Assembly: GCF_000003815.2 (NCBI RefSeq) | Contig: NC_049983.1 | Span: forward strand, 25,474,401-25,538,400 | DNA: 64,000 nt | Direction: 5' to 3' | From: Branchiostoma floridae | Taxonomy: Eukaryota; Chordata; Leptocardii; Amphioxiformes; Branchiostomatidae | In this document: piece after piece, positions 19,266-53,436 of the stretch | How positions within the stretch are numbered: the stretch's first letter is position 1 | Layout of the letters: every line of letters begins with the position of its first letter | The notes under the pieces: model-generated | The model's input: the letters and a program-made list of their open reading frames with translations, nothing else | Databases searched by the model: none | Told to the model about the DNA's origin: nothing | Made by a program: the position numbers and the translations under genes

Positions 19266-22200
19266 ATGCCTTACATGATACAGAAACTACTGCTGGTCCT
19301 TTTGCTGGTTGGTCCCGGTGGGCCCTGGTTCCTCGCGAAGGAAACTGAACCACCCAAACCCTGCAGCAACAGATGTCCATCAGACTGTGACTGCAGCAAC
19401 AGAGGTCTTAGCAAGGTTCCTCAGCATCTGCCTGAAAGTATCACTGGCCTTAAGTTAGGGAGCAATGCCATCACAACCCTGTCCTCGTCTGAACTCTCAA
19501 GGTACAAGTGTTTAAAAGGACTATATATGAATAGAAATCAGATATCTATTGTGCAGCCTGGAGCATTTTCAAAGCTTGTTCACCTGGAACGTTTACACCT
19601 TGATTCCAACCTACTAACAAGCATTCAGCCCGGTACATTCTCAAATATACCTAAGCTGAAACAATTGTTCATGCGCTACAACCATATATATAACATTGCA
19701 GCTGGAACATTCTCAAATTTACCCAGTCTTGAAAGTTTGTCTCTAGTAGCCAACGGCCTGACCAACATTCAGCCTGGCGCATTCTCAAATCTACCCAAGC
19801 TTGAACGATTGATCTTGAGTGTCAATAACCTAATTAAAATTCATCCTGATGCATTCTCCAATCTACCGCAGCTCCTCGCGTTACGCCTGAACTCGAATAG
19901 GATAACTAACATTGATTCTGATATGTTCTCAGAGATACCCACGCTGCAACGTTTGGTATTTGACTACAACCAAATAACCGGCATTCAACCTGGTACGTTC
20001 TCAAACCTACCCCAGCTCTATAATTTAGATATAGCGTATAACCAGATAACTAACATCAGTCCTGATGCATTCTCAAACCTTCACCAGCTCCAACAGTTAG
20101 GCTTGAGCTCCAACCAGATAACTAACATTAGTCCTGGTACATTCTCAGACCTCAACCAGCTCCAACGGTTAGAGTTAAAATCCAACCATATAACTGAGAT
20201 TCAACCTGGCACTTTTTTAAATCTCCCAAAGCTAGAAGTCTTACATCTGAATTCTAATCAAATGACAACCATTCAACCTGGCACATTCCAAAACCTACCC
20301 AAACATGTTAGACATATAGGTCTGCGTGACAACCCCTGGCAGTGTGACTGTAGGATGATTCCATTCAGGAAATGGATGACAAAATGGCATTTGTTTGAAA
20401 GCGAAGTTATTTGTGAGGAACCTGGTAAGGGCCGAGAGCAAAAGCTCCAAGATATAGAGCCCGGAAATTTGATCTGTGAAAAACCGAAAATCTTCAGTTT
20501 TCAAAGAAGCAAAGGTGATGCACCGTTGTGTGCTATGGCGCTGCATTTAATCTGTAACGCTTCAGGGATTCCTGAGCCAGACATTACGGTCACTCTTCCA
20601 TCTGGACAAAACGCAACTGTTAGGTCAGATGGGAGAGTTACTGTGAATAAGAATGGTAGCATCATCGTGAGGGATCTTACTAAAAAGGATTTCGGTTCAT
20701 ACCTTTGCATTGCAGCAAATCATGTCGCCTCTTCAGTTGCGGCACTGTTTGTTGAAATATCATGTACGATTCAAACATCGGTGATATCAAAAACATCTGA
20801 ATCAGCACTTGGCGGTAAAACCAGCCCCGTAGTCACAGGCTCAGCAATTGCCCCAACAAGTCCTGTTGGCTCAGCACCTTTCACATTCTCTGTTGCTGGT
20901 AAAATGCCGTCAGACACATCAACAACGTCTCAACTAGGCACTGCTAACAGATTTGTTGACATAAACCCAGTATTGTCTGAAGACCCAATCACTTTGAGGT
21001 TTAGGAGGATAAAGAATAACACGTTGGATTGGGGGGTCACTCTCCTTCTAGCCTGTGGAGGAATACCTTCATCAAACATTACGGTCATTCTCCCATCTGG
21101 ACTCAACACAAGCGTTGATGAGTCAAGTGGGAGAGTAACTGTAGAGGTGAATGGTACAACTTTTACCATTACCATAACAGATGTTAATGTGACAGATGCT
21201 GGTCTGTACAGCCACATTGCCGTGCGACCAAATGGATCCTCATCTGCCACAGTAACTGTTGTTATCAAAGACAAAGGCCCATCTTCAGTTACACCCAAAA
21301 CTTCTTCGCCTGCCACCTCTCCACCTGGCAAGACAGAAAGCAATGCTGACCCGGTGGTTCTCTACCCGTTAGTTGCTTTCGGTACACTTGCTGCAATCCT
21401 GATTATATCTGGCGTTGTTATAATCATGTTTCGGCGTAGGGCTCAAAAGCCCCCTTTGGTTTCTGCACCTACTGCTATTTCTGACAGTATAAACACAATC
21501 GCGACAAGCGACAAAGATAGCTCAAAGGAGCAGACGGGTAGATCGCCAACCCCTGGCAACACCCACTGCCCCGAAGGTTCAAAAGAACAATCTAACGAAT
21601 ATGAGAATAGCGAAGAAGCATGTAAACATATATCAAACATAAATGAGAATGAGGAGCAAACAGGCACAATCGTTCAAGCTTACAAGGTAGCCGGTTCTCT
21701 CTCTGAAGAACATGAATGTCCAAAGCCAGGAAATCAAATAGAATCAGTTGGCGCACCTCACGCAGTGATGGTTCACAAGCCGTTTACGTATGAAAATAGC
21801 GACGAGGAGACTGTGCTTGGTGTTGAAGATGAGCACGTGTATGTCAATGGTGGTAATGAGAAAATAGCGGCTGATGCGTCTCAGGCCATAAATCAGTATG
21901 GCAGTGAGGAGGTAGTTCCTACTCACGAGTTTAACCGCATGGTTGGTGGTGAGGCTGAGACAGATGTAAGTACATGTGTTTCATCTCAGCTTATCTATGG
22001 AAAGGACAGTGATGAAGCAATGACTACTGTCTCGCCAGCGATCTACAAAAATAACACTAAACAGTGTGAATCTGGTGTTTCTCATATCATCTACGGAAAT
22101 GATAATGAAGGTAATGATACGGTAGTATCTACCCCTTCTCTGGTTAACCATGAGTCTGGTAATGAGGCTGAGGCAGTAGCATATGCTTCTTCTCAATTCA

Positions 22201-22340
22201 TATATGAGAATGACAAGGACGAAGCAGCGATTGAAGCCTCATCAGTTATTTACAATGATAGCAGTAAACAGGCAAATTCTGCAGATGCTTATGTCATCTA
22301 TGGAAATGACGATGGGAGACCAACAGATGATGTTCCTTAG
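19266..22340 (+). CDS. Receptor C: LRR-Ig-Ig receptor with seven Tyr-x-Asn motifs
   Basis: A 1024-residue receptor: signal peptide, complete four-cysteine N-cap (CSNRCPSDCDC), twelve LRRs, C-cap (about 356-400), Ig1 (402-499), Ser/Thr stalk, Ig2 (572-669), membrane helix (about 698-721) and a 303-residue tail. Ig2 has lost its second cysteine: GLYSHIAV where gene G has GLYSCIAV. The tail is the most complete type, with YEN, YEN, YVN, YKN, YGN, YEN and YGN. It contains two copies of a module whose three tyrosines are spaced exactly 16 residues apart, and a Pro-rich KPPL stretch follows the membrane. Gene G is the closest paralog. It probably signals through SH2 adaptors once phosphorylated; this follows from the motif, not from direct evidence. 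Confidence 0.92.
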   Translation: MPYMIQKLLLVLLLVGPGGPWFLAKETEPPKPCSNRCPSDCDCSNRGLSKVPQHLPESITGLKLGSNAITTLSSSELSRYKCLKGLYMNRNQISIVQPGAFSKLVHLERLHLDSNLLTSIQPGTFSNIPKLKQLFMRYNHIYNIAAGTFSNLPSLESLSLVANGLTNIQPGAFSNLPKLERLILSVNNLIKIHPDAFSNLPQLLALRLNSNRITNIDSDMFSEIPTLQRLVFDYNQITGIQPGTFSNLPQLYNLDIAYNQITNISPDAFSNLHQLQQLGLSSNQITNISPGTFSDLNQLQRLELKSNHITEIQPGTFLNLPKLEVLHLNSNQMTTIQPGTFQNLPKHVRHIGLRDNPWQCDCRMIPFRKWMTKWHLFESEVICEEPGKGREQKLQDIEPGNLICEKPKIFSFQRSKGDAPLCAMALHLICNASGIPEPDITVTLPSGQNATVRSDGRVTVNKNGSIIVRDLTKKDFGSYLCIAANHVASSVAALFVEISCTIQTSVISKTSESALGGKTSPVVTGSAIAPTSPVGSAPFTFSVAGKMPSDTSTTSQLGTANRFVDINPVLSEDPITLRFRRIKNNTLDWGVTLLLACGGIPSSNITVILPSGLNTSVDESSGRVTVEVNGTTFTITITDVNVTDAGLYSHIAVRPNGSSSATVTVVIKDKGPSSVTPKTSSPATSPPGKTESNADPVVLYPLVAFGTLAAILIISGVVIIMFRRRAQKPPLVSAPTAISDSINTIATSDKDSSKEQTGRSPTPGNTHCPEGSKEQSNEYENSEEACKHISNINENEEQTGTIVQAYKVAGSLSEEHECPKPGNQIESVGAPHAVMVHKPFTYENSDEETVLGVEDEHVYVNGGNEKIAADASQAINQYGSEEVVPTHEFNRMVGGEAETDVSTCVSSQLIYGKDSDEAMTTVSPAIYKNNTKQCESGVSHIIYGNDNEGNDTVVSTPSLVNHESGNEAEAVAYASSQFIYENDKDEAAIEASSVIYNDSSKQANSADAYVIYGNDDGRPTDDVP

Positions 22341-22352
22341 TTTTACTTGAAA

Positions 22353-22358
22353 AATAAA
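22353..22358 (+). terminator. Candidate poly(A) signal, gene C
   Basis: AATAAA lies 12 nt after the stop codon. The equivalent site in gene G is at 53449-53454. The related 3'-UTR-like segment with TTGTTGTCCGG follows. Confidence 0.4.
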
Positions 22359-22738
22359 GATACCTAGTATCTACAGAAGTCAGCTTTGTTGTCCGGAAAG
22401 TATACAACTTTGCTAATACTTTCATGTAAATATAAGAAATTGTCAAAATAGATTGAAAGATATATAGTATCTGTAAAAGTCAGGTTAATTGTCGGAAAAG
22501 TGTACATATTTTACAACTTTGCCAAGATTCCAATGTAAACGCAAGAAACATTTTACTTGAGAAAAACGTCTTTGTACATCGACGTTGTTTTTTTCAGAAT
22601 GTCCAAGGTAATAAAAAAGGATGATAAATATTTTTAAACTTTCTGCGTAAGATTGATTTATAATGACATGAAAGGCTGAATTATATATTATGTATTGTAC
22701 AAATCTAGATCTAAAGAGTCCTATTTGTTTATTGCTAA

Positions 22739-23103
22739 GGCCATGCTGATTTGATTATATGGATTACATCCACCCGCGCATCAATTGTCTGCCTCTTCCA
22801 AAGAACAAAGTTTTTAAGCAAACAGTATATCGTACATAGCAGCTGCAATATGAGCAAATATATACCGTAGATTGCACAAAAATATCCGGAAAGGTATACG
22901 TATATCAATGTCTATTTTAAGATTAAGGAAAAATTGTGAAAGCACTAAAATGAAGAATCTATTGTTCGCTATACCATATTTCTTGCATTCAGTCATTTGT
23001 GACAACCTTCCTGACCAATTAGATTTCATAATGAATGGAATTTTTTTGGGGGGGGGGGGGGGTTCCAAGAGGATTTCATCCATATAATCAAATCAACGTG
23101 GCC
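22739..23103. mobile_element. TIR element (MITE-like), inverted copy downstream of gene C
   Basis: It starts GGCCATGCTGATTTGATTAT and ends ATAATCAAATCAACGTGGCC. TAA flanks both sides (CTAA-GGCC and GGCC-TAA), a possible target duplication. Its interior is the reverse complement of the copy at 18070-18463. A 16-nt G run lies at about 23047-23062. Confidence 0.7.
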
Positions 23104-26460: not shown

Positions 26461-26464
26461 CATG

Positions 26465-27190: not shown

Positions 27191-27214
27191 TTACGTTAGT
27201 TTCATGTTTTTTTA

Positions 27215-27880: not shown

Positions 27881-27899
27881 TTATTCTAGTAAGTAAGTC

Positions 27900-28348: not shown

Positions 28349-31312
28349 TTAACTGTGACAGCCAAACCGAGGAGCATCATCTGCCGGACTCCCATCGTCA
28401 TTTTCATAGACGACATTAGAATCTGCAGATTTCGCCTGTGTACCGTTATCATTGTAAATGACAGATGAGGCTTCAAACGCTGCTTCTCCCTTGACATTCT
28501 CATATATATATTGGGAAGAAGCATATGCTATTGCCTCAGCCTCATTGCCAAACTCACGGGTAAACCGAGAAGGGGTAGATACTACTGTATCCTCACCATC
28601 ACCATAATTTCCGTGGATAATATGAGAAACAGCAGATTTTGCCTGTTTACTGTTATCATTGTACATGGCTGGCGAGACAGTAGTCATTGCTTCATCACTG
28701 TCCTTTCCATAGATACAGGGAGATAAAATACATGTGCTTACATCCTCACAACCAACCACATGGTTAAACTCGTAAGTAGGAAGTACCTCCTCACAGCCAT
28801 ACTGATTGATAGCCTGAGAGGCATCAGCTGCTGTTTTCTCATCATCATTGACATAAACGTGCTCATCTTCAACACCAAGTACAGTCTCCTCGTCAGTATT
28901 TTCATACGTGAAGGGCTCGTGAACTATCACTGCCTGGGCTGCACAATCTGATTCATTTCGACTTCCTGCTTTTGTACATTCAGCTTCTTTAGAGGGAGGC
29001 TCTGCTACCTTGTGTGCTTTCTGGATTGTTTCTCTTTCATTTTCATTTAATGTTATGTTAACTTGTTCGTTTGTATCAGCTTCATCACTATTCTCATATA
29101 TGATATCCTGGTCGTTTTTACCTGTACCTGTGGGGCAGTCGGTGTTACCAAGGGTTGGCGATGTACCTCCCAAGTGCCCCTTGGGTGCAGGGGCCAAAGG
29201 GGACTTTTGGGTCCTACGTTGAAACAAAACTGAAGCAACGCCAAATATAATCAGTATTGCGAAAAATGTACCTAAGCCAACTGACAGGGAGAAGACCAGC
29301 GGATCAGCATTGCTTTCTGTCTTGCCAGGCGGCAAGGACGCTGACGAAGTAAGTTGGGGGGAAGATGAAGACGGGCCTTTAATGTCAACAATTAGTGTGG
29401 CGGATGCGGATCCAACTGGGGTCGCTACAATGCAGCTGTACAGACCAGAATCTGCCACAGTAACATCTGTTATGGTAATGGTAAAAGTTGTACCATTCAC
29501 CTCTACAATTACTCTCCCATCTGACTCGTCAGCGCTTGTATTGATGCCAGATGGGAGAATGACCGTAAAGTTCGGTGAGGGGATTCCTGAAGTTTCACAG
29601 ACCAAACGTAGATTGTCCCCCCAAACTAATGTGTTATTCTTGACCTCCTGAAACCTCAAAGTGATTGGGTCCTCAGGCAGCGTGGAAAATATAAGGCTTG
29701 TGACTGCAGATCTGTTTGCACTGCTAAGTCGTGTTGGTGATGATATGGCTGATGTCATTTGCCTATCAGCGGACAATGTGTGGGGTGCGGAGCCGGTATG
29801 GCTTGTTGAGGTAAGTACTGAGCCTGTAGCAACAGGGCCGTCTGTACTGCCAAGTGTTGTAGCTGTTGTTCTACCATCAGCAGACAGAGTAGAAGGTGCG
29901 AAGCCAATAGGGCTTGTTGGGGCAATTGTTGAGCCTGTACCAATGGGGCTGTCTGAGGTTATTGGTATCATCGGTGTTGCCATTCTAATCTCAACAGACA
30001 GTGTCGCAAATGAAGAACCAACATGATTTGATGCCATGCAAACGTACAAACCTACATCTGTTTTGGTAAGATACCTTACAACGATGCTACCATTCTCATT
30101 CACAGTAACTCGCTCATCTGACACAGAAGTTGCGTTACGCCCAGATGGAAGAATGACCGTAATGTCTGGTTTAGGAATCCCTGAAGCCTTACAGATTAAA
30201 TGAAGCGCATTTCCACTGAACAGTGTGACATCTTTGCCTCTTTGGAAACCCACGATTTTCGGTTTTTCACAGATCAAATTTCCGAGTTCTATATGTTGGA
30301 GCTTTTGCCCTCGAAACTTTCCAGGTTCCTCACAAATAATTTCGCTTTCAGAAAAATGAGACTTAAATGGAATCATCCTACAGTCACACTGCCAGGGGTT
30401 GTCCCGCAGATCTAAAGTAGCAAGTCTGGGTAGGTTTTGGAATGTGCCAGGTTGAATGGTTGTCATTTGATTACATCTCAGGGATAAGGTCTTTAGACTT
30501 GGGAGATTTGAAAAAGTTCCAGGTTGAATCTCAGTTATATGGTTGGACTTTAGCTCTAACCGTTGGAGCTGGTGAAGGTTTGAGAAGATACCAGGACTGA
30601 TAATTATCTGGTTATCCGCTATAACTAATAACTCGAGCAGAGGCATCTTTGAGAACAAATCAGAATCAATGTTACTTATCCGATTTGAGGTCAGGTCCAG
30701 CCTTCGGAGCTGCGGTAGATTGGAGAATGAATCCGGAGGGATTTTAGTTAGGTTATTGACATTCAAGCACAATCGTCTCAGCATGGGTAGATTTGAGAAT
30801 GCGCCAGGCTGAATATGGGTCAGGCCATTGCCTGTTAGAGCCAAACTTTCAAGACTGGGTAGATTTGAGAATGCTCCAGACGGAATGCTAGATAGATAGT
30901 TGTGGCGCAGGAACAAATCTATCAGCTTAGGTATATTTGAGAATGTACCGGACTGAATGCTTTTTAGCTGGTTGGAATCAAGATATACATATGTCAGGTG
31001 TACAAGATCTGAAAATGCTCCAGGCTGCACAATAGATATCTGATTTCCATCCATATCTAGTTCTATTAAACACTTGTACCTGGACAGGTCAGACGAAGAT
31101 AGGCTTGTGATGGCATTGTCCTCTAAGTTAAGGCTAGTGATACTTGTGGGTAGATCCTGGGGAACACTGCTGAGACCTCTGCCGCTGCGTTCACAGGATG
31201 AGGAACTGCTGCTGCTGCAGGTCGTAGTTGGTACATTTTCATTCCAGAGCCACCAGGACCAACCGGGACCAACCAGCAAAAGAACCAGCAGCTTCTTTAG
31301 CATGTAAGCCAT
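28349..31312 (-). CDS. Receptor D: LRR-Ig-Ig receptor, recombinant between A-type front and H-type tail
   Basis: A 987-residue receptor: signal peptide, two-cysteine serine-rich N-cap, ten LRRs, C-cap (about 306-346), Ig1 (348-438), stalk, Ig2 (547-641, both cysteines kept), membrane helix (about 671-697) and a 290-residue tail. From the 5' flank through the membrane helix it is nearly identical to gene A. From about GGTSPTLGN onward it follows gene H, including the ending VVYENDDGSPADDAPRFGCHS. The tail has five Tyr-x-Asn motifs (YEN, YEN, YVN, YEN, YEN). The third tyrosine of the first tail module is His (IIHGNYG). The start is supported by the acceptor 5 nt upstream. Confidence 0.92.
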   Translation of the reverse strand: MAYMLKKLLVLLLVGPGWSWWLWNENVPTTTCSSSSSSSCERSGRGLSSVPQDLPTSITSLNLEDNAITSLSSSDLSRYKCLIELDMDGNQISIVQPGAFSDLVHLTYVYLDSNQLKSIQSGTFSNIPKLIDLFLRHNYLSSIPSGAFSNLPSLESLALTGNGLTHIQPGAFSNLPMLRRLCLNVNNLTKIPPDSFSNLPQLRRLDLTSNRISNIDSDLFSKMPLLELLVIADNQIIISPGIFSNLHQLQRLELKSNHITEIQPGTFSNLPSLKTLSLRCNQMTTIQPGTFQNLPRLATLDLRDNPWQCDCRMIPFKSHFSESEIICEEPGKFRGQKLQHIELGNLICEKPKIVGFQRGKDVTLFSGNALHLICKASGIPKPDITVILPSGRNATSVSDERVTVNENGSIVVRYLTKTDVGLYVCMASNHVGSSFATLSVEIRMATPMIPITSDSPIGTGSTIAPTSPIGFAPSTLSADGRTTATTLGSTDGPVATGSVLTSTSHTGSAPHTLSADRQMTSAISSPTRLSSANRSAVTSLIFSTLPEDPITLRFQEVKNNTLVWGDNLRLVCETSGIPSPNFTVILPSGINTSADESDGRVIVEVNGTTFTITITDVTVADSGLYSCIVATPVGSASATLIVDIKGPSSSSPQLTSSASLPPGKTESNADPLVFSLSVGLGTFFAILIIFGVASVLFQRRTQKSPLAPAPKGHLGGTSPTLGNTDCPTGTGKNDQDIIYENSDEADTNEQVNITLNENERETIQKAHKVAEPPSKEAECTKAGSRNESDCAAQAVIVHEPFTYENTDEETVLGVEDEHVYVNDDEKTAADASQAINQYGCEEVLPTYEFNHVVGCEDVSTCILSPCIYGKDSDEAMTTVSPAMYNDNSKQAKSAVSHIIHGNYGDGEDTVVSTPSRFTREFGNEAEAIAYASSQYIYENVKGEAAFEASSVIYNDNGTQAKSADSNVVYENDDGSPADDAPRFGCHS

Positions 31313-31337
31313 TTTACCTGTAAGGAAAGAGAATCGC
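31313..31337 (-). promoter_or_regulatory. 3' splice acceptor, gene D
   Basis: The minus strand reads CTTTCCTTACAG, then GTAAA and ATG, identical to gene A. Confidence 0.65.
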
Positions 31338-33240
31338 TGTACAGTGTGGTGAAAAAAATGCTACGACCAACACTTGTTCCGATTTCCCTCAAAATGATGA
31401 AAGAAGAAGCAGCCTTCTGTTCAGCTCATTACCTGTCCTTTCCAAGAAAAAAGATTCAACATACTAAGTAGTGTTACGCAACTGAAACCACCTTTTGCTT
31501 CCCGCAAGAAGAGATGTATACACATTTTGGTTATCTTAAACTATCTGACACATGTCATAAGTATGAAATTCTCATCATTCAACACTAAAGAATTATGGCA
31601 TTTTCGTATTACTCATGCACAAAAGGCCATTATTCTATGTTCCGCCTCGCATAAATTACATCTGTTACATGTAGGGAAGTCTCACTATGGAACATCCAGG
31701 AAAAATAGAATGTGTATAATAAGATTTCTTCCCAAAAGAAGGCTGTCAATTTCCTACATCCTACAATCACTTCTTAACACTACTGTTGTACAACTCATTT
31801 GCTTTTGGTCCCCTTAGCTTTGCGGTTATTACTTAGTGCCTGGTACCCCAACCATATTTAAAAAAACAGTTTGAAGGACACAATCCTCCGTAGTCAAGGT
31901 GTTTACGATGTTGTAAAGGTGCTTGATGCCACATTAAAGACAGACGTGCCAAATGTCAGAATAATCAATAAAAATGATCTTGATTCACAGGTGCGAAGAC
32001 AGAGATCCAGACAAAAACAACTTGTTCAAAGTATAAAAATCTTATATTAATAAAGAAGGTTATGGTAGCATTTGTAGATGGATTATGTTAACGATCCAAT
32101 AATTTGATTGATATATGTTTAATCATGTTTAACTTTACTCAACAACCAGAAGAATAAATTTCCCATCTTTCACCACCAATGAATTATAGTATTTTGTAGT
32201 TATGCAAATCAAGTCTACATTTGCATAACTGACATCTACCGATATTCCTCTTTCAGCTCTTAGTCTGCGACCTCAAATTTGACAGATCGCTCAACGAATT
32301 CTGTAGAAAAGAAACTAATCTTTTTTACACTTTGTGTGCTTTGCTGTCTTCTCAGTCACACTTTTACGTTTTGGATGATATTCCCTTTTGGGGGGCAAAA
32401 CGTTTTTATTCGCACGCTCGCATCGGTTTTGGGGTTCCCAGAACATCTCATTCCTATAATCAAATCAACATGCACAGGGGTGAGGGATACCAGATTTCAA
32501 AGAAAGCAATGGTCTTTATGAGCTACAGTCGGTTAGCAAAAAGAAAAATTAATCAGTAGCTGTTCTAATGTTGAAAGCAGGCGTCGGCTTGATCTAAGAC
32601 ATGTGCCGAAGCATTGGTAGACTAATCTGCCTTTTCGAAATCTTTATACAGTAGATTTATTTTGACACGTCATCTATCTCGGTGTAACTGAGACTAAGAG
32701 GACAGATATGGAAACCGCCTATCCAGACATTTGCGAATCAAACAGCTATGAAATTCTTCAAACCCTTCTGGAACCACAGAGTGCACCATATTCACACTAT
32801 ATCAATGCGTTCACTATGAGACACTCAACCTATCAATGTCCTAAACACGAAGAGAACAAAAATAGATCCCCCTCCTCCGAAGAAATAATACTGATCGTTT
32901 GATGCAGTTATGTTGACAGATGTTGTCGGTCTGCTCGATGGCAGCCTCAAATATCTTTTTTTTACCATACAACGTTGCAGTTACGTGTTCTATAAGTAGT
33001 TCAATCAGAACCAAAAGTCACACCATCCGGATTCACCCGTAGATTTTTCCTGGACAAGTCAGCAGCTATTAGTTTTGGAAAATCACACCGTCTGACTCGA
33101 GATAGTAATTAAGGTGACGAAATTAGTACTTTTAGGAAACAAATGCTTTTCAAAAAAGCTGCAAAATCCGGCGGTCTACACCGTTCTACCCAAAGGGGTA
33201 TGTGTTCTATTTTAGAGCCTAACACTGCCAGAAGATTGAA
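31338..33240. other. 5' flank of gene D (presumed 5'-UTR intron)
   Basis: Nearly identical to 5261-7170 apart from point changes and small indels (GTAAA is missing near 31891). No convincing exon is seen. Confidence 0.5.
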
Positions 33241-36142: not shown

Positions 36143-38998
36143 TCATTTCCTTGGATGATAATTTTTGATATGGGAAACAGCAGATTCAGACTCTTTACTG
36201 TTATCCTTATATATGGCTAGCGAGACAGTACCGATTGCTTCGTCATTGTCAATTCCATAGAGAAGCTGAGAGGAAGTACCTAATTCTGTCTCAGCCTCAC
36301 CACCAGCCATACGGTTAAACACATGAGTAGGAACTACCTCCTCACAGTCATTCTGAGAACTGGCATGAGAGGCATCATCAGCCTCTGTTTTCCCATCATC
36401 CTTGTCACACCCCTTTAATGGCTTCTTATCTTCAAAATCATGTTCAGTCTGCTCGTCACTATTTTCATACGTAAACGACTTGTGGACTATCACTGCCTGG
36501 AGTGCACAAACTGATTCAATTTGATTTCCTGGCTTTTGACATTTAGTAGGTCCTCCAGGGGGAGAACCTGCTACCTTGTAAGCTTGAACGATTGTACCTG
36601 TTTGCTCCTCATTGTCATATATGTTATATTGTTCGTCTTTACATGCTTCTTCGTTATTCTCATATTTAGTAGATTGGTCGTTTGAACCTTCGGGAGAGTA
36701 GATGTTGTCGACGGTGTGGGATCTACCCGACTGCGCCTTTGAGTCATCTTTGTCACTTGTTGCGATTGTGTTTATACTGTCAGAAATAGCAGTAGGTGCA
36801 GAAGCCAAAGGAGGCTTTTTGGCCCTACGCAGAAACTTAATTAAGAAAACGCCAAATGTAATCAAGGCTGCAGCAAGCATACTTAAACTGATTGACAGAG
36901 AGAAGAGTGACAGGGAAAAGTTCAGCTTCTTGTCAGCATTACTTTCCGTCTTGTCAGGCGGAGAGGATGCAGGCGAAGAAGTTTCGGGTGTAACTGAAGA
37001 TGGGGCTTTGATGTCAACAATTAGTTTGGCAGATGCGGATCGAACAGGTCTCACTACAATGTAGCTGTACAGACCAGGGTCCGCCACAGTAACAACTGAT
37101 ACTGTAATGTTAAAAGTTTTGCCATTTCCGTCTACGGTTACTCTGCCACTTGACTCATCAGCGCTTGTGTTGAGTCCAGTTGGGAGAATGACCGTAATGT
37201 TTGATGAAGGTATTCCTTCACAGACCAGACGGAGAGTGACCCCCCAAACCAATGTGTTATTCTTGATCCTCCTAAACCTCAAAGTGATTGAGTCTTCAGA
37301 CAATACTGGGTTCAAGGCAGCAGATATGTCTGTACTGCTAAGTTGAGAAGTTGTTGATGTGTTTGATGGCATTTTACCATCAACAGAGAATGTGCAGAGT
37401 GAGGAGCCATCAGAACTTGTTGAGGCAAGTGTTGAGTCTGTGAGTTTTCCCGAGTGGGTTCTCCCGCCAAGTGCTGATTCAGAATGTTTTGATATCACCA
37501 AAGTTAGATTTTTACATGTAATCTCAACAAACAGTGTCGCAACTGAAGAGGCGACATGATTTGCTGCAATGCAAACGTATGAGCCAGAATCGTTTTCAGT
37601 AAGATCCCTTACAATGATGCTACCATTCTTATTCACAGTAACTCTGCCATATGACTCAACAGTTGCGTTTTGTCCAGATGGAAGAGTGACCGAAATGTCT
37701 GGTGTAGGAATCCCTGAAGCTTTACAGATTAAATGCAGTGCCTTCCTTCCCAGCATTGCTCTGCCTTTTTGAAAATCCATGATTTTCGGTTTTTCACAGA
37801 TCAAATTTCCGAGCTCTATATCTTTGAGATTTTGCCCTCGGAACTTACTAGGTTCCTCACAAATGATTTGGTTTTTGAACAAAGGTGACATGGTCATCCA
37901 TTTCCTGAATGCAACCATCCTACAGTCACACTGCCATGGATTGTCATGCAGACTTAATATATCATGTTTGGGTAGGTTTTGGAATGTGCCAGGTTGAATG
38001 GTCGTCATTTGATTACACCTCAGAACTAATCGCTCTAGCCTTGGGAGATTTGAAAAAGTGTCAGGTTGGATCTCAGTTATATGGTTGGAGCTCAGGTCTA
38101 ACCGTAGGAGCTGGTGGAGGTGTGAGAATGCACCAGGACTAATGTTAGTTATATGGTTGAAGCGCAGATCTAACCGTTGTAGCTGGGGTAGGCTTGAAAA
38201 GGCACCAGGACTAATGTTAGTTATCTGGTTATGCGCTATATCTAACTTATAGAGCTGGGGTAGGTTTGAGAATGTACCAAGTTGAATGCAAGTGACTTGG
38301 TTGTAATTAAAATCCAACTTTCGCATCGTGGGTATATTTGAGAACATATCAGAATCAATGTTACTTATCTGATTTGAGCCCAGGTCCAACGTTCGGAGTT
38401 TCCGTAGATTGGAGAATGAATCAGGATGAATTTTTGTTAGATTATTGATATTCAAGTACAATCGTTCAAGTTTGGGTAGATTTGAGAATGCGCCAGTCTG
38501 AATGTTGGACAGGCCGTTGCCCAACAAAGTCAAAAAATAAAGACTGGGTAGATTAGAGAATGCTCCGGACGGAATACTAGATAGATGGTTGTGGCGCAGG
38601 AACAATTCTTTCAGCTTAGGTATATTTGAGAATGTACCGGACTGAATGCTTTTTAGCTGGTTGGAATCAAGATGTACACATGTCAGGTGAATAAGATTTG
38701 AAAATGCTCTAGGCTGCACAATAGATATCTGATTAGTGAATATCATTAGTTTTGTTAAACACTTGTACCTGGAGAGGTCAGAAGAAGATATGCTTGTGAT
38801 GGCATTGCGCCCTAAGTGAAGGCTAGTGATACTTTTAGGTAGATCGTGAGGAACACTGCTGAGGCCTCTGTCGCTGCGGTCACAGTATGATGAACCGCTG
38901 CTGCTGCAGGTCGTAGTTGGTCCAGTTTCCTTCCGCCACCAGGACCAACCGGGACCAACCAGCAAAAGAACCAGTAGTTTCTGTACCATGTAAGACAT
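36143..38998 (-). CDS. Receptor E: LRR-Ig-Ig receptor with truncated tail
   Basis: A 951-residue receptor: signal peptide, two-cysteine N-cap, twelve LRRs, C-cap (about 352-398), Ig1 (400-492), stalk, Ig2 (570-663), membrane helix (about 698-722) and a tail of about 228 residues. Ig2 has lost its second cysteine (GLYSYIVV). Three Tyr-x-Asn motifs remain (YEN, YDN, YEN); later ones have changed (LLYGID, AIYKDN). The frame ends with a novel ending after a 10-bp insertion. The front half is nearly identical to gene B. Stalk, Ig2 and tail resemble gene F. Confidence 0.9.
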   Translation of the reverse strand: MSYMVQKLLVLLLVGPGWSWWRKETGPTTTCSSSGSSYCDRSDRGLSSVPHDLPKSITSLHLGRNAITSISSSDLSRYKCLTKLMIFTNQISIVQPRAFSNLIHLTCVHLDSNQLKSIQSGTFSNIPKLKELFLRHNHLSSIPSGAFSNLPSLYFLTLLGNGLSNIQTGAFSNLPKLERLYLNINNLTKIHPDSFSNLRKLRTLDLGSNQISNIDSDMFSNIPTMRKLDFNYNQVTCIQLGTFSNLPQLYKLDIAHNQITNISPGAFSSLPQLQRLDLRFNHITNISPGAFSHLHQLLRLDLSSNHITEIQPDTFSNLPRLERLVLRCNQMTTIQPGTFQNLPKHDILSLHDNPWQCDCRMVAFRKWMTMSPLFKNQIICEEPSKFRGQNLKDIELGNLICEKPKIMDFQKGRAMLGRKALHLICKASGIPTPDISVTLPSGQNATVESYGRVTVNKNGSIIVRDLTENDSGSYVCIAANHVASSVATLFVEITCKNLTLVISKHSESALGGRTHSGKLTDSTLASTSSDGSSLCTFSVDGKMPSNTSTTSQLSSTDISAALNPVLSEDSITLRFRRIKNNTLVWGVTLRLVCEGIPSSNITVILPTGLNTSADESSGRVTVDGNGKTFNITVSVVTVADPGLYSYIVVRPVRSASAKLIVDIKAPSSVTPETSSPASSPPDKTESNADKKLNFSLSLFSLSISLSMLAAALITFGVFLIKFLRRAKKPPLASAPTAISDSINTIATSDKDDSKAQSGRSHTVDNIYSPEGSNDQSTKYENNEEACKDEQYNIYDNEEQTGTIVQAYKVAGSPPGGPTKCQKPGNQIESVCALQAVIVHKSFTYENSDEQTEHDFEDKKPLKGCDKDDGKTEADDASHASSQNDCEEVVPTHVFNRMAGGEAETELGTSSQLLYGIDNDEAIGTVSLAIYKDNSKESESAVSHIKNYHPRK

Positions 38999-39024
38999 TT
39001 TACCTGAAAGGAAAGAGAATCACT
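38999..39024 (-). promoter_or_regulatory. 3' splice acceptor, gene E
   Basis: The minus strand reads CTCTTTCCTTTCAG, then GTAAA and ATG, 5 nt from AG to ATG. Confidence 0.65.
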
Positions 39025-42862: not shown

Positions 42863-42865
42863 ATG

Positions 42866-42887
42866 ATTCCGTTTTCTTACAGGTAAA
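42866..42887 (+). promoter_or_regulatory. 3' splice acceptor, gene F
   Basis: TTCCGTTTTCTTACAG (AG at 42881-42882), then GTAAA and ATG at 42888. Confidence 0.68.
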
Positions 42888-45797
42888 ATGTCTTACATGG
42901 TACAGAAACTACTGGTCCTTTTGCTGGTTGGTCCCGGGTGGTCCTGGTTCCTCCAGAAGGAAACTAGACCAACCACGCCCTGCAGCAGCAGCTGTCCATC
43001 AGACTGTGACTGCAGCGACAAAGGTCTCAGCAAGGTTCCTCAGTATCTGCCTAAAAGTATCACTAGCCTTAAGTTAGGCGGTAATGCCATCACAAGCCTG
43101 TCTTCTTCTGACCTTTCCAGGTACCAAGCTTTGACATACCTACAGGCATTCCCTCAGATATCTATTGTGCAGCCTGGAGCATTTTCAAAGCTTGTTCACC
43201 TGGAATGTTTGCACCTTAGTTCCAACCAACTAACAAGTATTCAGCCCGGTACATTTTCAAATATACCTAAGCTCAAAGAATTGTTCCTGCGCCACAACCA
43301 CCTATCTAGCATTCCTTCTGGAGCATTCTCAAATCTACCCAGTCTTGAATTTTTGGCTCTAACAGACAACGGCCTGACCCACATTCAGCCTGGCGCATTC
43401 TCAAATCTACTCAAACTTGAACGATTGTTCTTGAATGTCAATAACCTAACTTATATTCATCCTGATTCATTCTCCAATCTACCGCAGCTCCGAAAGTTGG
43501 CCCTAAACTCAAATAGGATAAGCAACATTGATTCTGATATGTTTTCAAAGATACCTACGCTGCTAGATTTGGAAATGAACTACAACCAAATAACTGGAAT
43601 TCAACATGGTACATTCTCAAGCCTACCCCATCTCAACGAGTTAGAGATAGCGCATAACCAGATAACTAACATTAGTCCTGATGCATTCTCACAGCTCCAC
43701 CAGCTCCAACGGTTAGAGCTGCATTACAACCAAATAACTGAGATCCAACCTGGCACCCTTTCAAACCTCACAAGGCTAGTAGTATTACGCCTGAAATCTA
43801 ATAAAATGACGACCATTCAACCATTCCCAAACTTATCCAAAGACGCTGAATTAAGTCTGCGTGGCAACCCCTGGCAGTGTGACTGTAGGATGGTTGCATT
43901 AAAAAAATGGATGACCATGTCCCCTTTGTTTGAAATACAAATCATTTGTGAGGAACCTAGTAACTTCCGCGGGGTTATGCTTCAGCAAATAGAGTCCCAA
44001 AATTTGATCTGTGAAAAACCGAAAATCGTGGGTTTTCAAAGAGGCCGAGATGTCACACTGCTGCGTGGAGACGCGCTGCATTTAATCTGTAAAGCTTCAG
44101 GGATTCCTAAACCAGACATTACGGTCACTCTTCCATCTGGACGGAATGCAACTGTTGGGTCAGATGGGAGAGTAACTGTGAATACAAATGGTAGCATCAT
44201 TGTAAGGAACCTTACTAAACATGATTCTGGTTCATACGTTTGCATTGCGGCAAATCATGTCGCCTCTTCAGTTGCGACACTGTTTGTTGAGATTACAATT
44301 CCAACATCGATGACATCAAAAACATCTGAATCAGCACTTGGAAGTACAGCCAGCCCCGTAGCTACAGCCTCAACAAGTCCTACAGACTCCGCACATTCCA
44401 CATTCTCTGCTGATGGTAAAATACCGTCAGAAATATTAACATCTTCTCAACTAGGCAGTGGAAACAGATCTGCTGCCATGAACCCAGTATTGTCTGAGGA
44501 CCCGATCACTTTGAGGTTTAGGAGAATCAAGAATAACACTTTGGTTCGGGGGGTCACTCTCCGTCTGGTCTGTGAGGGAGTACCTTCATCAAACATTACG
44601 GTCATTCTCCCATCTGGAATCAACACAAGCGTGCATGAGTCGAGTGGGAGACTAAGTGTAGAGGCGAATGGTACAACCTTTACCATTACCATAACAGATG
44701 TTAATGTGACAGATGCTGATCTATACAGCTACATTGCAGTGAGACCAGTTGGCTCATCTGCCACACTAAAGGTTAATATAAAAGGCCCATCTTCAGTTAC
44801 ACCCGAAACTTCTTCGGCTGCATCCTCTCCACCTGGCAAGACAGAAATTAATGCTGACAAGAAGCTGAACCTTTCCCTGTCAGCCTTCTCTCTGTCAATT
44901 AGTTTAGGCACTCTTGCTACAGCCTTGATTGCATCTGGCGTTGCTTTAACTCTGTTTAAGCGTAGGACCAAAAAGCCCCCTTTGCCTTCTGCACCAACTG
45001 CTATTTCTTACAGTGTAAACACAATCGCAACAAGTGACAAAGATAGTTCAAAGGGGCAGTCGGGTAGATCACCAACCATCGACAACATCTACTCTGCCGA
45101 AGGTTCAAACGACCAGTCTAACAAATATGAGAATAGCGAAGAAGCACGTACAAACGAACAATCTAACATATATGACAATGAAGAGCAAACAGGCACAATC
45201 GTTCAAGCTTACAAGGTAGCAGGTTCTCCCTCTGGAGGATCTGCTGAATGTCCAAAGGCAGGTAATCAAATTGATACAGTCTGTGCACTCCACGCAGTGA
45301 TGGTTCACAAGCCGTTTACGTATGAAAACAATGACGAGCAGACTGAACATGATCTTGAAGATGACAAGCACGTGTATGATAATGATTTTGAGAAAACAGT
45401 ACCTGATGCCTCTCCTGCCATAACTAAGTGTGACTGTGAGGAGGTAGTTCCTACTCACGAGTTTAACAGTGTGGTTGGTGGTGAGGCTGAGACAGGTATA
45501 AGTATTCCATGTAAGTTTATCTATGGAAATGACAGTGATGAAACAATGAGTACTGTCTCGCCAGCGATCTACAAAAATACCCGTGAGTCTGGCAATGAGG
45601 CTGAGGCAGTATCAAATGCTTCTTCCCAAGTCATATATGGGAATGACCAGGAGAAAGCAGCGTTTGAAGTCTCGTCAGTCATTTACAGTGATAGCGGTAA
45701 ACGGGCAAAATCTGCAGATTCTAATGTCATATATGGAAATGACGATGGGAGCCCAGCAGATGCTGCTGCTCCTTTTGGCTGTCAAAATAAACTTTAA
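42888..45797 (+). CDS. Receptor F: LRR-Ig-Ig receptor with eight Tyr-x-Asn motifs
   Basis: A 969-residue receptor: signal peptide, four-cysteine N-cap (CSSSCPSDCDC), eleven LRRs (the second is degenerate, LTYLQAFPQ), C-cap (about 327-375), Ig1 (376-471), a short stalk, Ig2 (538-631), membrane helix (about 668-692) and a 277-residue tail. Ig2 lacks its second cysteine (DLYSYIAV). The tail has the highest motif count: YEN, YDN, YEN, YDN, YGN, YKN, YGN and YGN. An in-frame deletion of about 34 residues fuses AIYKN directly to TRESGNEAEA, removing the last part of the first tail module. AATAAA overlaps the final codons (45786-45791). Confidence 0.92.
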   Translation: MSYMVQKLLVLLLVGPGWSWFLQKETRPTTPCSSSCPSDCDCSDKGLSKVPQYLPKSITSLKLGGNAITSLSSSDLSRYQALTYLQAFPQISIVQPGAFSKLVHLECLHLSSNQLTSIQPGTFSNIPKLKELFLRHNHLSSIPSGAFSNLPSLEFLALTDNGLTHIQPGAFSNLLKLERLFLNVNNLTYIHPDSFSNLPQLRKLALNSNRISNIDSDMFSKIPTLLDLEMNYNQITGIQHGTFSSLPHLNELEIAHNQITNISPDAFSQLHQLQRLELHYNQITEIQPGTLSNLTRLVVLRLKSNKMTTIQPFPNLSKDAELSLRGNPWQCDCRMVALKKWMTMSPLFEIQIICEEPSNFRGVMLQQIESQNLICEKPKIVGFQRGRDVTLLRGDALHLICKASGIPKPDITVTLPSGRNATVGSDGRVTVNTNGSIIVRNLTKHDSGSYVCIAANHVASSVATLFVEITIPTSMTSKTSESALGSTASPVATASTSPTDSAHSTFSADGKIPSEILTSSQLGSGNRSAAMNPVLSEDPITLRFRRIKNNTLVRGVTLRLVCEGVPSSNITVILPSGINTSVHESSGRLSVEANGTTFTITITDVNVTDADLYSYIAVRPVGSSATLKVNIKGPSSVTPETSSAASSPPGKTEINADKKLNLSLSAFSLSISLGTLATALIASGVALTLFKRRTKKPPLPSAPTAISYSVNTIATSDKDSSKGQSGRSPTIDNIYSAEGSNDQSNKYENSEEARTNEQSNIYDNEEQTGTIVQAYKVAGSPSGGSAECPKAGNQIDTVCALHAVMVHKPFTYENNDEQTEHDLEDDKHVYDNDFEKTVPDASPAITKCDCEEVVPTHEFNSVVGGEAETGISIPCKFIYGNDSDETMSTVSPAIYKNTRESGNEAEAVSNASSQVIYGNDQEKAAFEVSSVIYSDSGKRAKSADSNVIYGNDDGSPADAAAPFGCQNKL

Positions 45798-46400: not shown

Positions 46401-46499
46401 TTAAGTACCAGAATGAACATATGTTAAATATTGTTAAATGAGGGACCTTTACTTGTAAGTTTCTATGTAAGAATAATTAATGATTACATGATAGGCTGA

Positions 46500-49357: not shown

Positions 49358-49748
49358 GGCCGCGTTGATTTGATTATAGGAAGGGCATCTTCTGGGAACC
49401 CAATAACTGATGCGAGCGTGCGAATAAAAAAGGTTTAACCCCCCAAAAGTTCCTTTCATCATGAAATCTAATTGTTCGTGAGGTTTTAAAAATAGGTGAC
49501 TGATCACACAGAGTATGGAATACCGAACAAAAGATTCTTCATTTTTGTTCTTTCACATCGTCTTTGACCTTAACTTTCGCGTTGGGATTCCATGACATTA
49601 GCTTATGTTTTTTCCCATATATATTGCTTTTAAATCTACGGCATATATTTGCTCATTTTGCCGCTGCTTAGTTCGATTTACTGCATATCTTTTTGAAACG
49701 TCGGAAAGTTAAAGCTGATGTCATGCATATAATCAAATCAACAAGGCC
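49358..49748. mobile_element. TIR element (MITE-like), copy upstream of gene G
   Basis: GGCCGCGTTGATTTGATTAT at the left and ATAATCAAATCAACAAGGCC at the right, about 391 bp. The interior is close to the gene C copy at 18070-18463 and in the same orientation relative to the gene. Confidence 0.7.
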
Positions 49749-50265
49749 GTACATATATACAGACGTTGCAAACGTACAGCGACTTTCGTACCACCAACTA
49801 CAAACTACAACATAGAAATAGACTCATGCATGGTGAAAGTGAGAGTAGAGACCTATTCTTCAACTGGTTGTGACAGAGAAGATAGACGCTATGTCCAAAA
49901 ATGTCGGTAGTCAAAGAGGGTATAAAATACCTTAGCCACACCGTAAACACCTAAATTACATTACTGAGGATTGTGGCCTACTGACTCTTGTTTAGCTAGT
50001 ATGATTGGGGTACCAGGCACTAACAGCAAAGCTAAATGCGATCAAAAGCATATGAGCTGTGGAACAGTATATGTAAGTGATAGGATGTGATTGCAGGAGG
50101 TATCTTCTTTTTCTCTGTTTTTCTCAACCTATTGAGAAAAACCTTCATCTCAGATAGGAAATGTACAAGAAGCTAAACAAATGACTGCTTATTTTTTCAC
50201 CATTTTGTGGGAAATAGAAACGTGTGATGGCTGTAACAGCAACTATTTATCACACTGTGCAATGA

Positions 50266-50286
50266 TTCTCTCTCCTTACAGGAAAA
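50266..50286 (+). promoter_or_regulatory. 3' splice acceptor, gene G
   Basis: TCTCTCTCCTTACAG (AG at 50280-50281), then GAAAA and ATG at 50287, as in gene C. Confidence 0.7.
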
Positions 50287-53200
50287 ATGCCTTACATGAT
50301 ACAGAAACTACTGCTGGTCCTTTTGCTGGTTGGTCCCGGTTGCACCTGGTGGCTGCAGAAGAAAAATGAACCAACCACGCACTGCAGCAACAGATGTCCA
50401 TCAGACTGTGACTGCAGCAACAGAGGTCTTAGCAAGGTTCCTCAGCATCTGCCTGAAAGTATCACTAGCCTTCAGTTAGGGCGCAATGCCATCACAACCT
50501 TGTCCTCGTCTGACCTCTCAAGGTACAAGGGTTTAACAGAACTTATGATATGCATTAATCAGATATCTATTGTGCAGCCTGGTGCATTTTCAAAGCTTGT
50601 TCACCTGAAACGTTTAGACCTTGATTCCAACCAACTAAGAAGCATTCAGCCCGGTACATTCTCAAATATACCTAAGCTGAAACAATTGTTCATGTGCTGC
50701 AACCATATATATAACATTGCTGCTGGAGCATTCTCAAATTTACCCAGTCTTGAAAGTTTGTCTCTAATAGCCAACGGCCTGACCAACATTCAGCCTGGCT
50801 CATTCTCAAATCTACCCAAGCTTGAACGATTGTCCTTGAGTCTCAATAACCTAACTAAAATTCATCCTGATGCATTCTTCAATCTACTGCAGCTACGCGC
50901 GTTACACCTGAACTCGAATAGGATAACTAACATTGATTCTGATACGTTCTCAAACATACCCACGCTGCGAGATTTGGAAATGCAACACAACCAAATAACT
51001 GGCATTCAATCTGGTACATTCTCAAGCGTACCCGAACTCCAGCTGTTAATGATAGCGTATAACCAGATAACTAACATTAGTCCTGGTGCATTCTCACACC
51101 GCCACCAGCTCCAATGGTTAGATCTGAAGTACAACCATATAACCGAGATCCAACCTGGCACACTTTCAAATCTCGCAAGGCTAGATAATTCATACCTGAA
51201 TTCTAATCAAATGGCAACCATTCAACCTGGCACATTCCAAAACCTACCCAAACATGCTAGACATATAGGTCTGCGTGACAACCCCTGGCAGTGTGACTGT
51301 AGGATGATTCCATTCAGGAAATGGATGACAAAATGGCATTTGTTTGAAAGCGAAGTTATTTGTGAGGAACCTGGTAAGTTTCGAGGGCAAAAGCTCCAAG
51401 ATATAGAGCCCGGAAATTTGATCTGTGAAAAACCGAAAATCGTCAGTTTTCAAAGAAGCAAAGGTGATGCACCGTTGTGTGCTATGGCGCTGCATTTAAT
51501 CTGCAACGCTTCAGGGATTCCTGAGCCAGACATTACGGTCACTCTTCCATCTGGACAAAACGCAACTGTTAGGTCAGATGGGAGAGTTACTGTGAATAAG
51601 AATGGTAGCATCATCGTAAGGGATCTTACTAAAAAGGATTCCGGTTCATACCTTTGCATTGCAGCAAATCATGTGGCCTCTTCAGTTGCGGCACTGTTTG
51701 TTGAAATATCATGTACGATTCAAACATCGGTGATATCAAAAACATCTGAATCAGCACTTGGCGGTAAAACCAGCCCCGTAGTCACAGGCTCAGCAATTGC
51801 CCCAACAAGTCCTACTGGCTCCGCACCTTCCACATTCTCTGCTGATGGTAAATTACCGTCAGACATATCAACATCGGTGATATCAAAAACATCTGAATCA
51901 GCACTTGGCGGTAAAACCAGCCCCGTAGTCACAGGCTCAGCAATTGCCCCAACAAGTCCTGCTGGCTCAGCACCTTCCACATTCTCTGTTGCTAATAAAA
52001 TGCCGTCAGACACATCAACAACGTCTCAACTAGGCACTGCTAACAGATCTGTTGACATAAACCCAGTATTGTCTGAAGACCCAATCACTTTGAGGTTTAG
52101 GAGGATAAAGAATAACACGTTGGTTTGGGGGGTCACTCTCCGTCTAGCCTGTGGAGGAATACCTTCATCAAACATTACGGTCATTCTCCCATCTGGACTC
52201 AACACAAGCGTTGATGAGTCAAGTGGGAGAGTAACTGTAGAGGTGAATGGTACAACTTTTACCATTACCATAACAGATGTTAATGTGACAGATGCTGGTC
52301 TGTACAGCTGCATTGCCGTGCGACCAAATGGATCCTCATCTGCCACAGTAACTGTTGTTATCAGAGACAATGGCCCATCTTCAGTTACACCCGAAACTTA
52401 TTCGTCTACATCCTCTCCGCCTGGCCAGACAGAAAGCAATGCTGACCCGGTAGTTCTCTCCCTGTTAGTTGCTTTTGGTACACTTGCTGCAATCCTGATT
52501 ATATCTGGCGTTGTTATAATCATGTTTCTGCGTAGGGCTCAAAAGCCCCCTTTGGTTTCTGTATCTGCTGCCATTTTTGACAGTATAAACACAATAGCAA
52601 CAAGCGACAAAGATAGCTCAAAGGAGCGGACGGGTAGATCGCCAACCCCTGGCAACACCCACTGCCCCGAAGGTTCAAACGAACAATCTAACGAATATGA
52701 GAATAGCGAAGAAGCATGTAAACATATATCGAACATAAATGAGAATGAGGAACACACAGGCACAATCGTTCAAGCTTACAAGGTAGCCGGTTCTCTCTCT
52801 GAAGAACATGAATGTCCAAAGGCAGGAAATCAAATAGAATCAGTTGGCGCACCCCACGCAGTGATGGTTCACAAGCCGTTTACGTATGAAAATAGTGACG
52901 AGGAGACTGTGCTTGGTGTTGAAGATGAGCACGTGTATGTCAATGGTGATGATGAGAAAATACCGGCTGATGCCTCTCAGGCCATAAATCAGTATGGCTG
53001 TGAGGAGGTAGTTCCTATTCACGAGTTTAACCGCATGGTTGGTGGTGAGGCTGAGACAGATGTAAGTACATGTGTTTCATCTCAGCTTATCTATGGAAAG
53101 GACAGTGATGAAGCAATGACTACTGTCTCGCCATCGATCTACAAAAATAACACTAAACAGTGTGAATCTGGTGTTTCTCATATCATCTACGGAAATGATA

Positions 53201-53436
53201 ATGAAGGTAATGATACGGTAGTATCTACCCCTTCTCTGGTTAACCATGAGTCTGGTAATGAGGCTGAGGCAGTAGCATATGCTTCTTCTCAATTCATATA
53301 TGAGAATGACAAGGTGGAAGCTGCGTTTGAAGCCTCATCAGTTATTTACAATGATAGCAGTAAACAGGCAAATTCTGCAGATGCTCATGTCATCTATGGA
53401 AATGACGATGGGAGACCAGCAGATGATGTTCCTTAA
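50287..53436 (+). CDS. Receptor G: longest LRR-Ig-Ig receptor, duplicated stalk
   Basis: A 1049-residue receptor: signal peptide, four-cysteine N-cap, eleven LRRs, C-cap (about 332-379), Ig1 (380-475), a stalk with two 49-residue copies (about 480-577), Ig2 (598-694, with the GLYSCIAV cysteine present, unlike gene C), membrane helix (about 723-749) and a 300-residue tail. The tail has seven Tyr-x-Asn motifs and two complete three-tyrosine modules. It ends GNDDGRPADDVP and is followed by AATAAA at 53449-53454. From the C-cap onward it is very close to gene C; the LRRs have diverged more, and one repeat fewer is present. Confidence 0.93.
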   Translation: MPYMIQKLLLVLLLVGPGCTWWLQKKNEPTTHCSNRCPSDCDCSNRGLSKVPQHLPESITSLQLGRNAITTLSSSDLSRYKGLTELMICINQISIVQPGAFSKLVHLKRLDLDSNQLRSIQPGTFSNIPKLKQLFMCCNHIYNIAAGAFSNLPSLESLSLIANGLTNIQPGSFSNLPKLERLSLSLNNLTKIHPDAFFNLLQLRALHLNSNRITNIDSDTFSNIPTLRDLEMQHNQITGIQSGTFSSVPELQLLMIAYNQITNISPGAFSHRHQLQWLDLKYNHITEIQPGTLSNLARLDNSYLNSNQMATIQPGTFQNLPKHARHIGLRDNPWQCDCRMIPFRKWMTKWHLFESEVICEEPGKFRGQKLQDIEPGNLICEKPKIVSFQRSKGDAPLCAMALHLICNASGIPEPDITVTLPSGQNATVRSDGRVTVNKNGSIIVRDLTKKDSGSYLCIAANHVASSVAALFVEISCTIQTSVISKTSESALGGKTSPVVTGSAIAPTSPTGSAPSTFSADGKLPSDISTSVISKTSESALGGKTSPVVTGSAIAPTSPAGSAPSTFSVANKMPSDTSTTSQLGTANRSVDINPVLSEDPITLRFRRIKNNTLVWGVTLRLACGGIPSSNITVILPSGLNTSVDESSGRVTVEVNGTTFTITITDVNVTDAGLYSCIAVRPNGSSSATVTVVIRDNGPSSVTPETYSSTSSPPGQTESNADPVVLSLLVAFGTLAAILIISGVVIIMFLRRAQKPPLVSVSAAIFDSINTIATSDKDSSKERTGRSPTPGNTHCPEGSNEQSNEYENSEEACKHISNINENEEHTGTIVQAYKVAGSLSEEHECPKAGNQIESVGAPHAVMVHKPFTYENSDEETVLGVEDEHVYVNGDDEKIPADASQAINQYGCEEVVPIHEFNRMVGGEAETDVSTCVSSQLIYGKDSDEAMTTVSPSIYKNNTKQCESGVSHIIYGNDNEGNDTVVSTPSLVNHESGNEAEAVAYASSQFIYENDKVEAAFEASSVIYNDSSKQANSADAHVIYGNDDGRPADDVP
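51724..52017 (+). repeat. 147-bp tandem duplication in the stalk of gene G
   Basis: ACATCGGTGATATC starts at 51724 and again at 51871, giving two 147-bp (49-codon) copies of the TSVISKTSESALGGK segment. The unit is a multiple of three, so the frame is kept and the stalk lengthened. Gene C has a single copy. Confidence 0.95.

Follow-up and report, generated by a model that had tools for sequence, protein, structure and literature searches.

Lancelet LRR-Ig receptor tails carry arrays of Y-x-N motifs that may form a built-in LAT-like phosphotyrosine scaffold

A 64,000-nucleotide stretch of the Branchiostoma floridae genome (C5:25474401-25538400, the window) contains eight stop-to-stop open reading frames (ORFs) of 923-1056 residues each, here named A to H, which encode receptor-like proteins with leucine-rich repeats (LRR) and immunoglobulin (Ig) domains. 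Their tails carry repeated tyrosines with asparagine at +2 (YxN), set in the unit [I/V]-Y-[E/G/x]-N-[D/E/S]. The motif is strongly enriched, the +2 position evolves more slowly than other parts of the tail, related sequences outside the window carry the motif in tandem repeats, and the same genome encodes a Grb2 with the appropriate SH2 residues. We propose, from these sequence features and as a reading that we hold to be fairly probable, that the proteins are LRR-Ig receptors with a built-in LAT-like multivalent phosphotyrosine scaffold, which would take its input from a Src-family kinase and dock Grb2-type adaptors.

Each ORF runs from a signal-like start through LRRs, one or two Ig domains and a hydrophobic segment to an acidic tail. 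Pfam finds LRR_8 and Ig_3/I-set in all eight, and likewise in all six relatives scanned (L043, L046, L047, L050, L054, L056; L001-L070 denote stretches fetched from elsewhere in the same genome, which was searched as 513 Mb in 431 contigs). A hydrophobic segment ending in RR, recognised by eye, precedes the tail in all eight; seven have a predicted transmembrane segment upstream of the tail (19-residue mean hydropathy of at least 1.84), whilst that of B was assigned by reading the sequence. The tails are 164-298 residues long with a net charge of -19 to -37, and their composition and repeats suggest that they are disordered. A to H are predicted to be type I surface receptors with cytoplasmic tails.

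The eight tails contain 40 YxN against 6.9 expected; none of 2000 shuffles reached 40 and the shuffle maximum was 16. Put differently, Asn occupies +2 of 40 of the 91 tail tyrosines (6.9 expected). Asn is more weakly raised at +3 (18) and -2 (14; 7.0 expected), and every remaining offset from -8 to +8 has at most 9 (+1, 9). Tested singly with 5000 shuffles, seven of the eight tails lie above chance at 0.013 or less, each with several pY-x-N-type sites (3-8); the tail of B, with one, does not (0.38). The ectodomains of A to H have no YxN excess (4 versus 4.7 expected). Composition alone is ruled out as the cause of the count, since neither shuffled tails nor ectodomains reproduce the excess. 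The initial annotation of this DNA had given the same counts exactly (A 4, B 1, C 7, D 5, E 3, F 8, G 7, H 5) and had placed them within 19266-53436; the counts are right for all eight receptors, but A, B and H fall outside that span.

The residue before the tyrosine is also far from random. In the window tails [IVL]Y occurs 46 times (13.1 expected) and [IVL]YxN 29 times (1.0 expected; 2000 shuffles each), whilst acidic residues are depleted at -1 ([DE]Y, 2 versus 16.7). Between -8 and +10 the most informative positions are -1 and +2, with Kullback-Leibler (KL) values of 1.42 and 1.30 in a set of 30 tails centred on C5 and of 1.41 and 1.08 in 20 distant tails; for these values, positions within identical 25-residue windows were counted once, whereas the shuffle tests kept all positions. 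Of the tails in the C5-centred set, 29 come from C5; the remaining one, L037 on C1, is the gene that appears in the distant set as L039. The set includes L017, L018 and L034, which lack an in-frame transmembrane segment just upstream, L019, which is marginal (1.74), and L038, a short fragment. In the window the two preferences are coupled, Ile, Val or Leu preceding 29 of 40 YxN tyrosines versus 16 of 51 others (p=0.00013). At -1, I, L or V is strongly favoured by Lck and c-Src and an acidic residue by ZAP-70 (PMC5889215), and Asn at +2 is the dominant feature of the Grb2 SH2 profile (PMC10065799). The unit, whose -1 residue matches the Src/Lck preference and whose +2 residue matches that of the Grb2 SH2 domain, is thus suited to both a Src-family kinase and a Grb2-type SH2 domain.

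Other classic tyrosine motifs are scarce. Yxx[LIV] is depleted in the window tails (3 versus 12.9 expected), and the eight tails contain no immunoreceptor tyrosine-based inhibition motif (ITIM, [IVLS]xYxx[LIV]; 3.2 expected), no pair resembling an immunoreceptor tyrosine-based activation motif (ITAM, Yxx[LIV]-x6-12-Yxx[LIV]) and no YxxM, YxxP or NPxY. Among all 50 tails of the C5-centred and distant sets, one (L047) has a single ITAM-like match. Readings as ITAM, ITIM, PI3K (YxxM), Crk-type YxxP or NPxY sites were rejected, none being enriched in the window.

Searching the genome with the tail of receptor G gave 84 matching stretches on C1, C3, C5, C7, C9 and C12; an array query gave 104, with C2, C10 and C17 among the contigs added. 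The 20 distant tails contain 126 YxN against 21.4 expected and 95 [IVL]YxN against 2.9 (500 shuffles), and other patterns shift in the same direction as in the window. The number of YxN per distant tail ranges from 0 (L057) to 22 (L047), with 21 in L046, 14 in L050 and 13 in L056; by Pfam these four proteins with long arrays are LRR-Ig proteins too. Tyrosines are most commonly spaced 16 residues apart, with a spacing of 17 in part of L056; a 48-bp unit is present in 17.9 copies in L046. The window tails retain traces of this period: in receptor C six tyrosines fall in two exact 16-residue runs (911-927-943 and 980-996-1012), though not every one of the six belongs to a YxN. YxN also occurs in units of other lengths, of 17 (L056), 22 (L044) and 18/21 residues (L065). 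Copy number (0-22 YxN) seems to vary through tandem duplication of the 48-bp unit and point loss of Tyr or Asn.

Some relatives have different arrays. L043 and L045 amplify another tyrosine unit, EFNRVYDGEAVSSP (EFNRVYDGE-type), which is in frame in both and also ends receptor B (42 bp x 8.0). A six-frame-open stretch in L045 was considered as a huge minisatellite and rejected, as 2837-5059 is a run of N beside the 42-bp tail array. A group of seven relatives at 1.5-1.7 Mb on C7 (L048, L051-L055, L058), together with L057 on C12, keeps the 16-residue Tyr spacing with the +2 Asn mostly absent (YGHED, YKTDN, YEAGD); in the C7 group +2 is often A, T, H or K. The membrane-proximal tails of this group and L057 also share a recurrent Y[E/D]DPE.

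Evidence of constraint comes from a codon tree of 29 tails: 28 of the 30 C5-centred tails (those with 225 residues or more) together with L040, L034 and L038 being dropped. Seven are the window's own. A column was kept if at least 70% of rows had a residue there, which gave 277 of 421. Columns at +2 had a mean of 1.73 nonsynonymous changes versus 3.49 in columns away from Tyr (13 versus 186 columns, p=0.0027), and Asn columns at +2 of a Tyr had 1.39 versus 3.58 in other Asn columns (9 versus 13, p=0.0055). The -1, +1 and Tyr columns lean toward slower change, without significance. Pooled over four arrays, the ratio of nonsynonymous to synonymous differences (pN/pS) was 0.32 at +2, 0.47 at -1 and 0.80 at 13 other positions. 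Because Tyr was used to centre the array units, its own value follows from the construction and was not counted; when units were instead anchored independently of Tyr, on S-[QH]-like pairs, too many windows fell out of register for a clean test.

A potential reader of the motif is encoded in the same genome. Human Grb2 as query identifies Grb2 exons on C13, the best at 78% identity. The SH2 exons (L059/L060) contain FLIRES and HFKV, and their residues include the Arg that would bind phosphotyrosine, a Lys that would contact the ligand, and the EF1 Trp, which is W121 in human Grb2; both the EF1 Trp and the phosphotyrosine-pocket residues are thus present. The EF1 Trp makes the ligand turn, which is why Asn is required at +2.

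In the proposed scaffold, ligand would cluster the receptors, a Src-family kinase would phosphorylate the tail tyrosines, helped by Ile/Val at -1, and Grb2-type SH2 domains would dock on the resulting pY-x-N sites. SH3 domains would then bring Sos/Gab/WASP-like partners and cross-link the tails into membrane clusters, as with LAT, with Ras or (phagocytic) actin as the likely output. One polypeptide would thus perform roles that vertebrates split among an ITAM receptor, ZAP-70 and LAT, and would have no Syk-type step. By analogy, precedents for such a mechanism are LAT, Nephrin clusters, an amphioxus LRR receptor phosphorylated by Lck and Grb2-dependent phagocytosis through a tail-less LRR protein.

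Several results weigh against this proposal. On the side of the motif, YxxN is also in excess in the window tails (18 versus 6.9), and the distant tails are also enriched in YxK (29 versus 16.4). In the distant tails Ile, Val or Leu at -1 is frequent at tyrosines of every kind and not coupled to YxN (95 of 126 versus 105 of 155, p=0.19), and +3 is mostly D, E, S or N, leaving unmet the moderate preference of Src and Lck for a hydrophobic residue there (PMC5889215). The seven C7 relatives have 1-6 YxN among 9-15 tyrosines, and the four stretches sampled on C2, C10 and C17 (L067-L070), which keep the 16-residue Tyr spacing, have 7 YxN among 30. On the side of constraint, the codon tree gives no significant slowdown at the Tyr columns (p=0.19) or at -1 (p=0.09) and +1 (p=0.10). 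By pooled pN alone +5 is lower than +2 (0.212 versus 0.227), and +2 is never the position of lowest pN in any of the four arrays taken singly. Asn also persists in copies without Tyr: in all 15 at column 92, in all 12 at column 259 (His copies), and after Tyr loss in 3 of 3 at column 76, 4 of 4 at column 153 and 5 of 5 at column 299. Column 171 is the opposite, Asn being lost as well in 7 of 8 Tyr-less copies. As Asn mostly outlasts Tyr, either the constraint on Asn does not act purely through phosphotyrosine, Asn perhaps having a second role, or the Tyr losses are recent and perhaps few.

Of the alternatives, repeat drift survives best. Coding minisatellites would expand and decay nearly neutrally, and YxN would be common since the founding unit happened to carry one. 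The 16-, 14- and 22-residue repeats are obvious, and repeats share descent, so that motif counts are not independent. Tail codons have on average 3.28 nonsynonymous and 1.31 synonymous changes each, which suggests weak overall constraint, and the persistence of most Asn after Tyr loss, the Tyr columns and the single arrays all point the same way. However, within these tails +2 has accumulated fewer changes than the remainder and fewer than Asn at other sites, and in the pooled arrays its pN/pS is the lowest of all except the Y-centred column. YxN has also been amplified in differing unit lengths and contexts (16, 17, 18/21 and 22 residues). We regard drift as a rather unlikely explanation.

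We judge it quite unlikely that the tails are a phosphotyrosine scaffold read mainly by some other protein with an SH2 or PTB domain, the mix of sites differing between clades: YxN in the window, NRVYDG arrays elsewhere, and Y[E/D]DPE with IYKTD on C7. The EFNRVYDGE arrays of L043 and L045 and the C7 group, with its period of 16 and its varied +2, would fit such a mixture, and the SH2 domains of the Grb7 family and of GRAP/GADS favour pY-x-N too. Against it, the window tails hold next to none of the sites for other readers (no YxxM, YxxP or NPxY, and three Yxx[LIV]), and among the Tyr-offset patterns tested only YxxN is likewise in excess, to a lesser degree. Classical ITIM-type inhibitory or ITAM-type activating receptors would have a parallel in BbLcLRR of B. 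belcheri, an amphioxus LRR receptor that serves as a Lck substrate and recruits SHIP1/SHP (PMC8211107), but the depletion of Yxx[LIV] and the lack of any ITIM or ITAM-like pair in the eight tails make this highly improbable.

The Grb2-docking scaffold had been suggested in the initial annotation, and the evidence supports it in part. The enrichment of Asn at +2 holds across the family, ITAM-type YxxL pairs are indeed not the organising motif, and the slow +2 columns and the Grb2 SH2 residues favour it, whilst the persistence of Asn without Tyr, the Tyr columns that are not slower and the Asn-poor relatives count against it. That annotation had not noted the Ile/Val at -1, the repeat of 16 residues or the longer arrays outside the window.

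A second LRR family, with at least 173 matching stretches in the genome, carries a different tyrosine array. Two members, L001 and L006, have LRRs without a Pfam Ig match, and their tails are unrelated to those of the LRR-Ig proteins. The arrays L061-L064 repeat HDHQYEDIDKQHNQTGQGQSQAITES (HDHQYEDIDKQ) about every 38 residues; for three of the four, frames of equal length had LRR matches close by, that of L064 not being among those listed. They serve as a control, having a similar Asn content (6.1-8.5%) yet YxN at 4 of 68 tyrosines. YxN is absent from the 8 tyrosines of L006 and from the 3 in the part of L004 covered; its presence at 2 of the 6 tyrosines of L001 is a further point against our proposal. 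Around the 68 tyrosines, His stands at -2 in 29, Glu at +1 in 38 and Ile at +3 in 30, and H-x-Y-E-x-[I/M] occurs at 27. The c-Src SH2 domain prefers His at -2, Asp or Glu at +1 and Ile at +3 (PMC10065799), and the HQ-Y-ED-I site resembles such a ligand. Since the repeats share descent, this likeness amounts to one coincidence or one adaptation, not many. We put forward only tentatively, as a possibility we would not yet favour, that the genome holds two separate receptor sets, each spread across it, with tandem phosphotyrosine arrays of differing SH2 flavour: LRR-Ig receptors with a mostly 16-residue [I/V]-Y-x-N unit (Src kinase in, Grb2 out), and a second LRR set (no Ig in the two scanned) with a 38-residue, Src-SH2-like HQ-Y-ED-I unit. 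Coding minisatellites would then tune valency, and signal strength would evolve by repeat number.

Three of the window ORFs lie on the plus strand: C (19245..22340, tail 21444-22337, 7 YxN), F (42867..45797, tail 44970-45794, 8 YxN) and G (50266..53436, tail 52540-53433, 7 YxN), the last being the genome-search query. Between the Ig region and the membrane, G has a 147-bp tandem duplication (51723-52020; 2.0 copies, 94% matches). On the minus strand are A (2311..5283, tail 2314-3132, 4 YxN), B (10764..13535, tail 10767-11258, 1 YxN), D (28349..31360, tail 28352-29209, 5 YxN), E (36143..39019, tail 36146-36820, 3 YxN), whose tail is shorter than those of C and G, and H (60813..63788, tail 60816-61682, 5 YxN). 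Receptor A stops directly after its last Tyr, a TGA at 2311-2313 cutting the last motif there; the matches L024 and L025 have one TGA each, and the frame of L025 stops at the same Tyr. Receptor B ends within the 14-residue repeat EFNRVYGGEAVSSP, encoded by a 42-bp minisatellite (10487..10834, minus strand, 8.0 copies) that overlaps and extends beyond its stop.

If the proposal is correct, basal chordates achieved multivalent immune signalling by joining a recognition domain and a LAT-like scaffold in one polypeptide, with no need for a Syk-family step, and the number of docking sites would be a trait quickly altered by repeat expansion. The natural variants, related receptors with 0 to 22 sites, would make the idea that valency sets the signalling threshold testable. 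YxN docking and multivalent scaffolds are already known; the tandem-array form in LRR-Ig receptors is apparently a new variant, no description of it having been recognised among the titles and opening lines of abstracts in the part of the literature covered.

The closest comparison is with LAT-type adaptors. These too have several pY-x-N per tail, which Grb2 and SH3 ligands could cross-link, and they are reported to form Grb2/Sos condensates. In contrast to LAT, the lancelet scaffold shares a polypeptide with a large LRR-Ig ectodomain, its -1 residue is Ile/Val (Src-type) and not acidic (ZAP-70-type), and its relatives reach 22 sites, largely in tandem repeats. The acidic -1 being absent, the tails would work like LAT and not be LAT. 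The Nephrin-Nck-N-WASP system uses a different adaptor and is not known to have a tandem repeat array. It is similar in that a multivalent phosphotyrosine receptor tail drives clustering at the membrane (PMC4238058). The CD28 family (YMNM in CD28; YxNx binding Grb2/GADS in CD28H) also places YxN in the tail of an Ig-family immune receptor, but with one such motif per tail and no arrays in the text available (PMC11599192). CD28 moreover has a PI3K YxxM beside its YxN, which none of the window tails has, and according to the same source no convincing homologue of CD28, CTLA4 or ICOS is seen in B. floridae. Within amphioxus, BbLcLRR is likewise an LRR receptor whose tail tyrosines are phosphorylated by a Src-family kinase; it differs in combining LRR with WSC, no Ig being reported, and in its ITIM-like DDYATV, HDYSEV and HDYDDP, and the available text does not use the term YxN (PMC8211107). 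FrLRR, an amphioxus LRR protein that is phagocytic and co-precipitates with Grb2, differs from the receptors described here in having no cytoplasmic tail (PMC10199209). If the proposal holds, the YxN tails would offer candidate mediators between this tail-less protein and Grb2.

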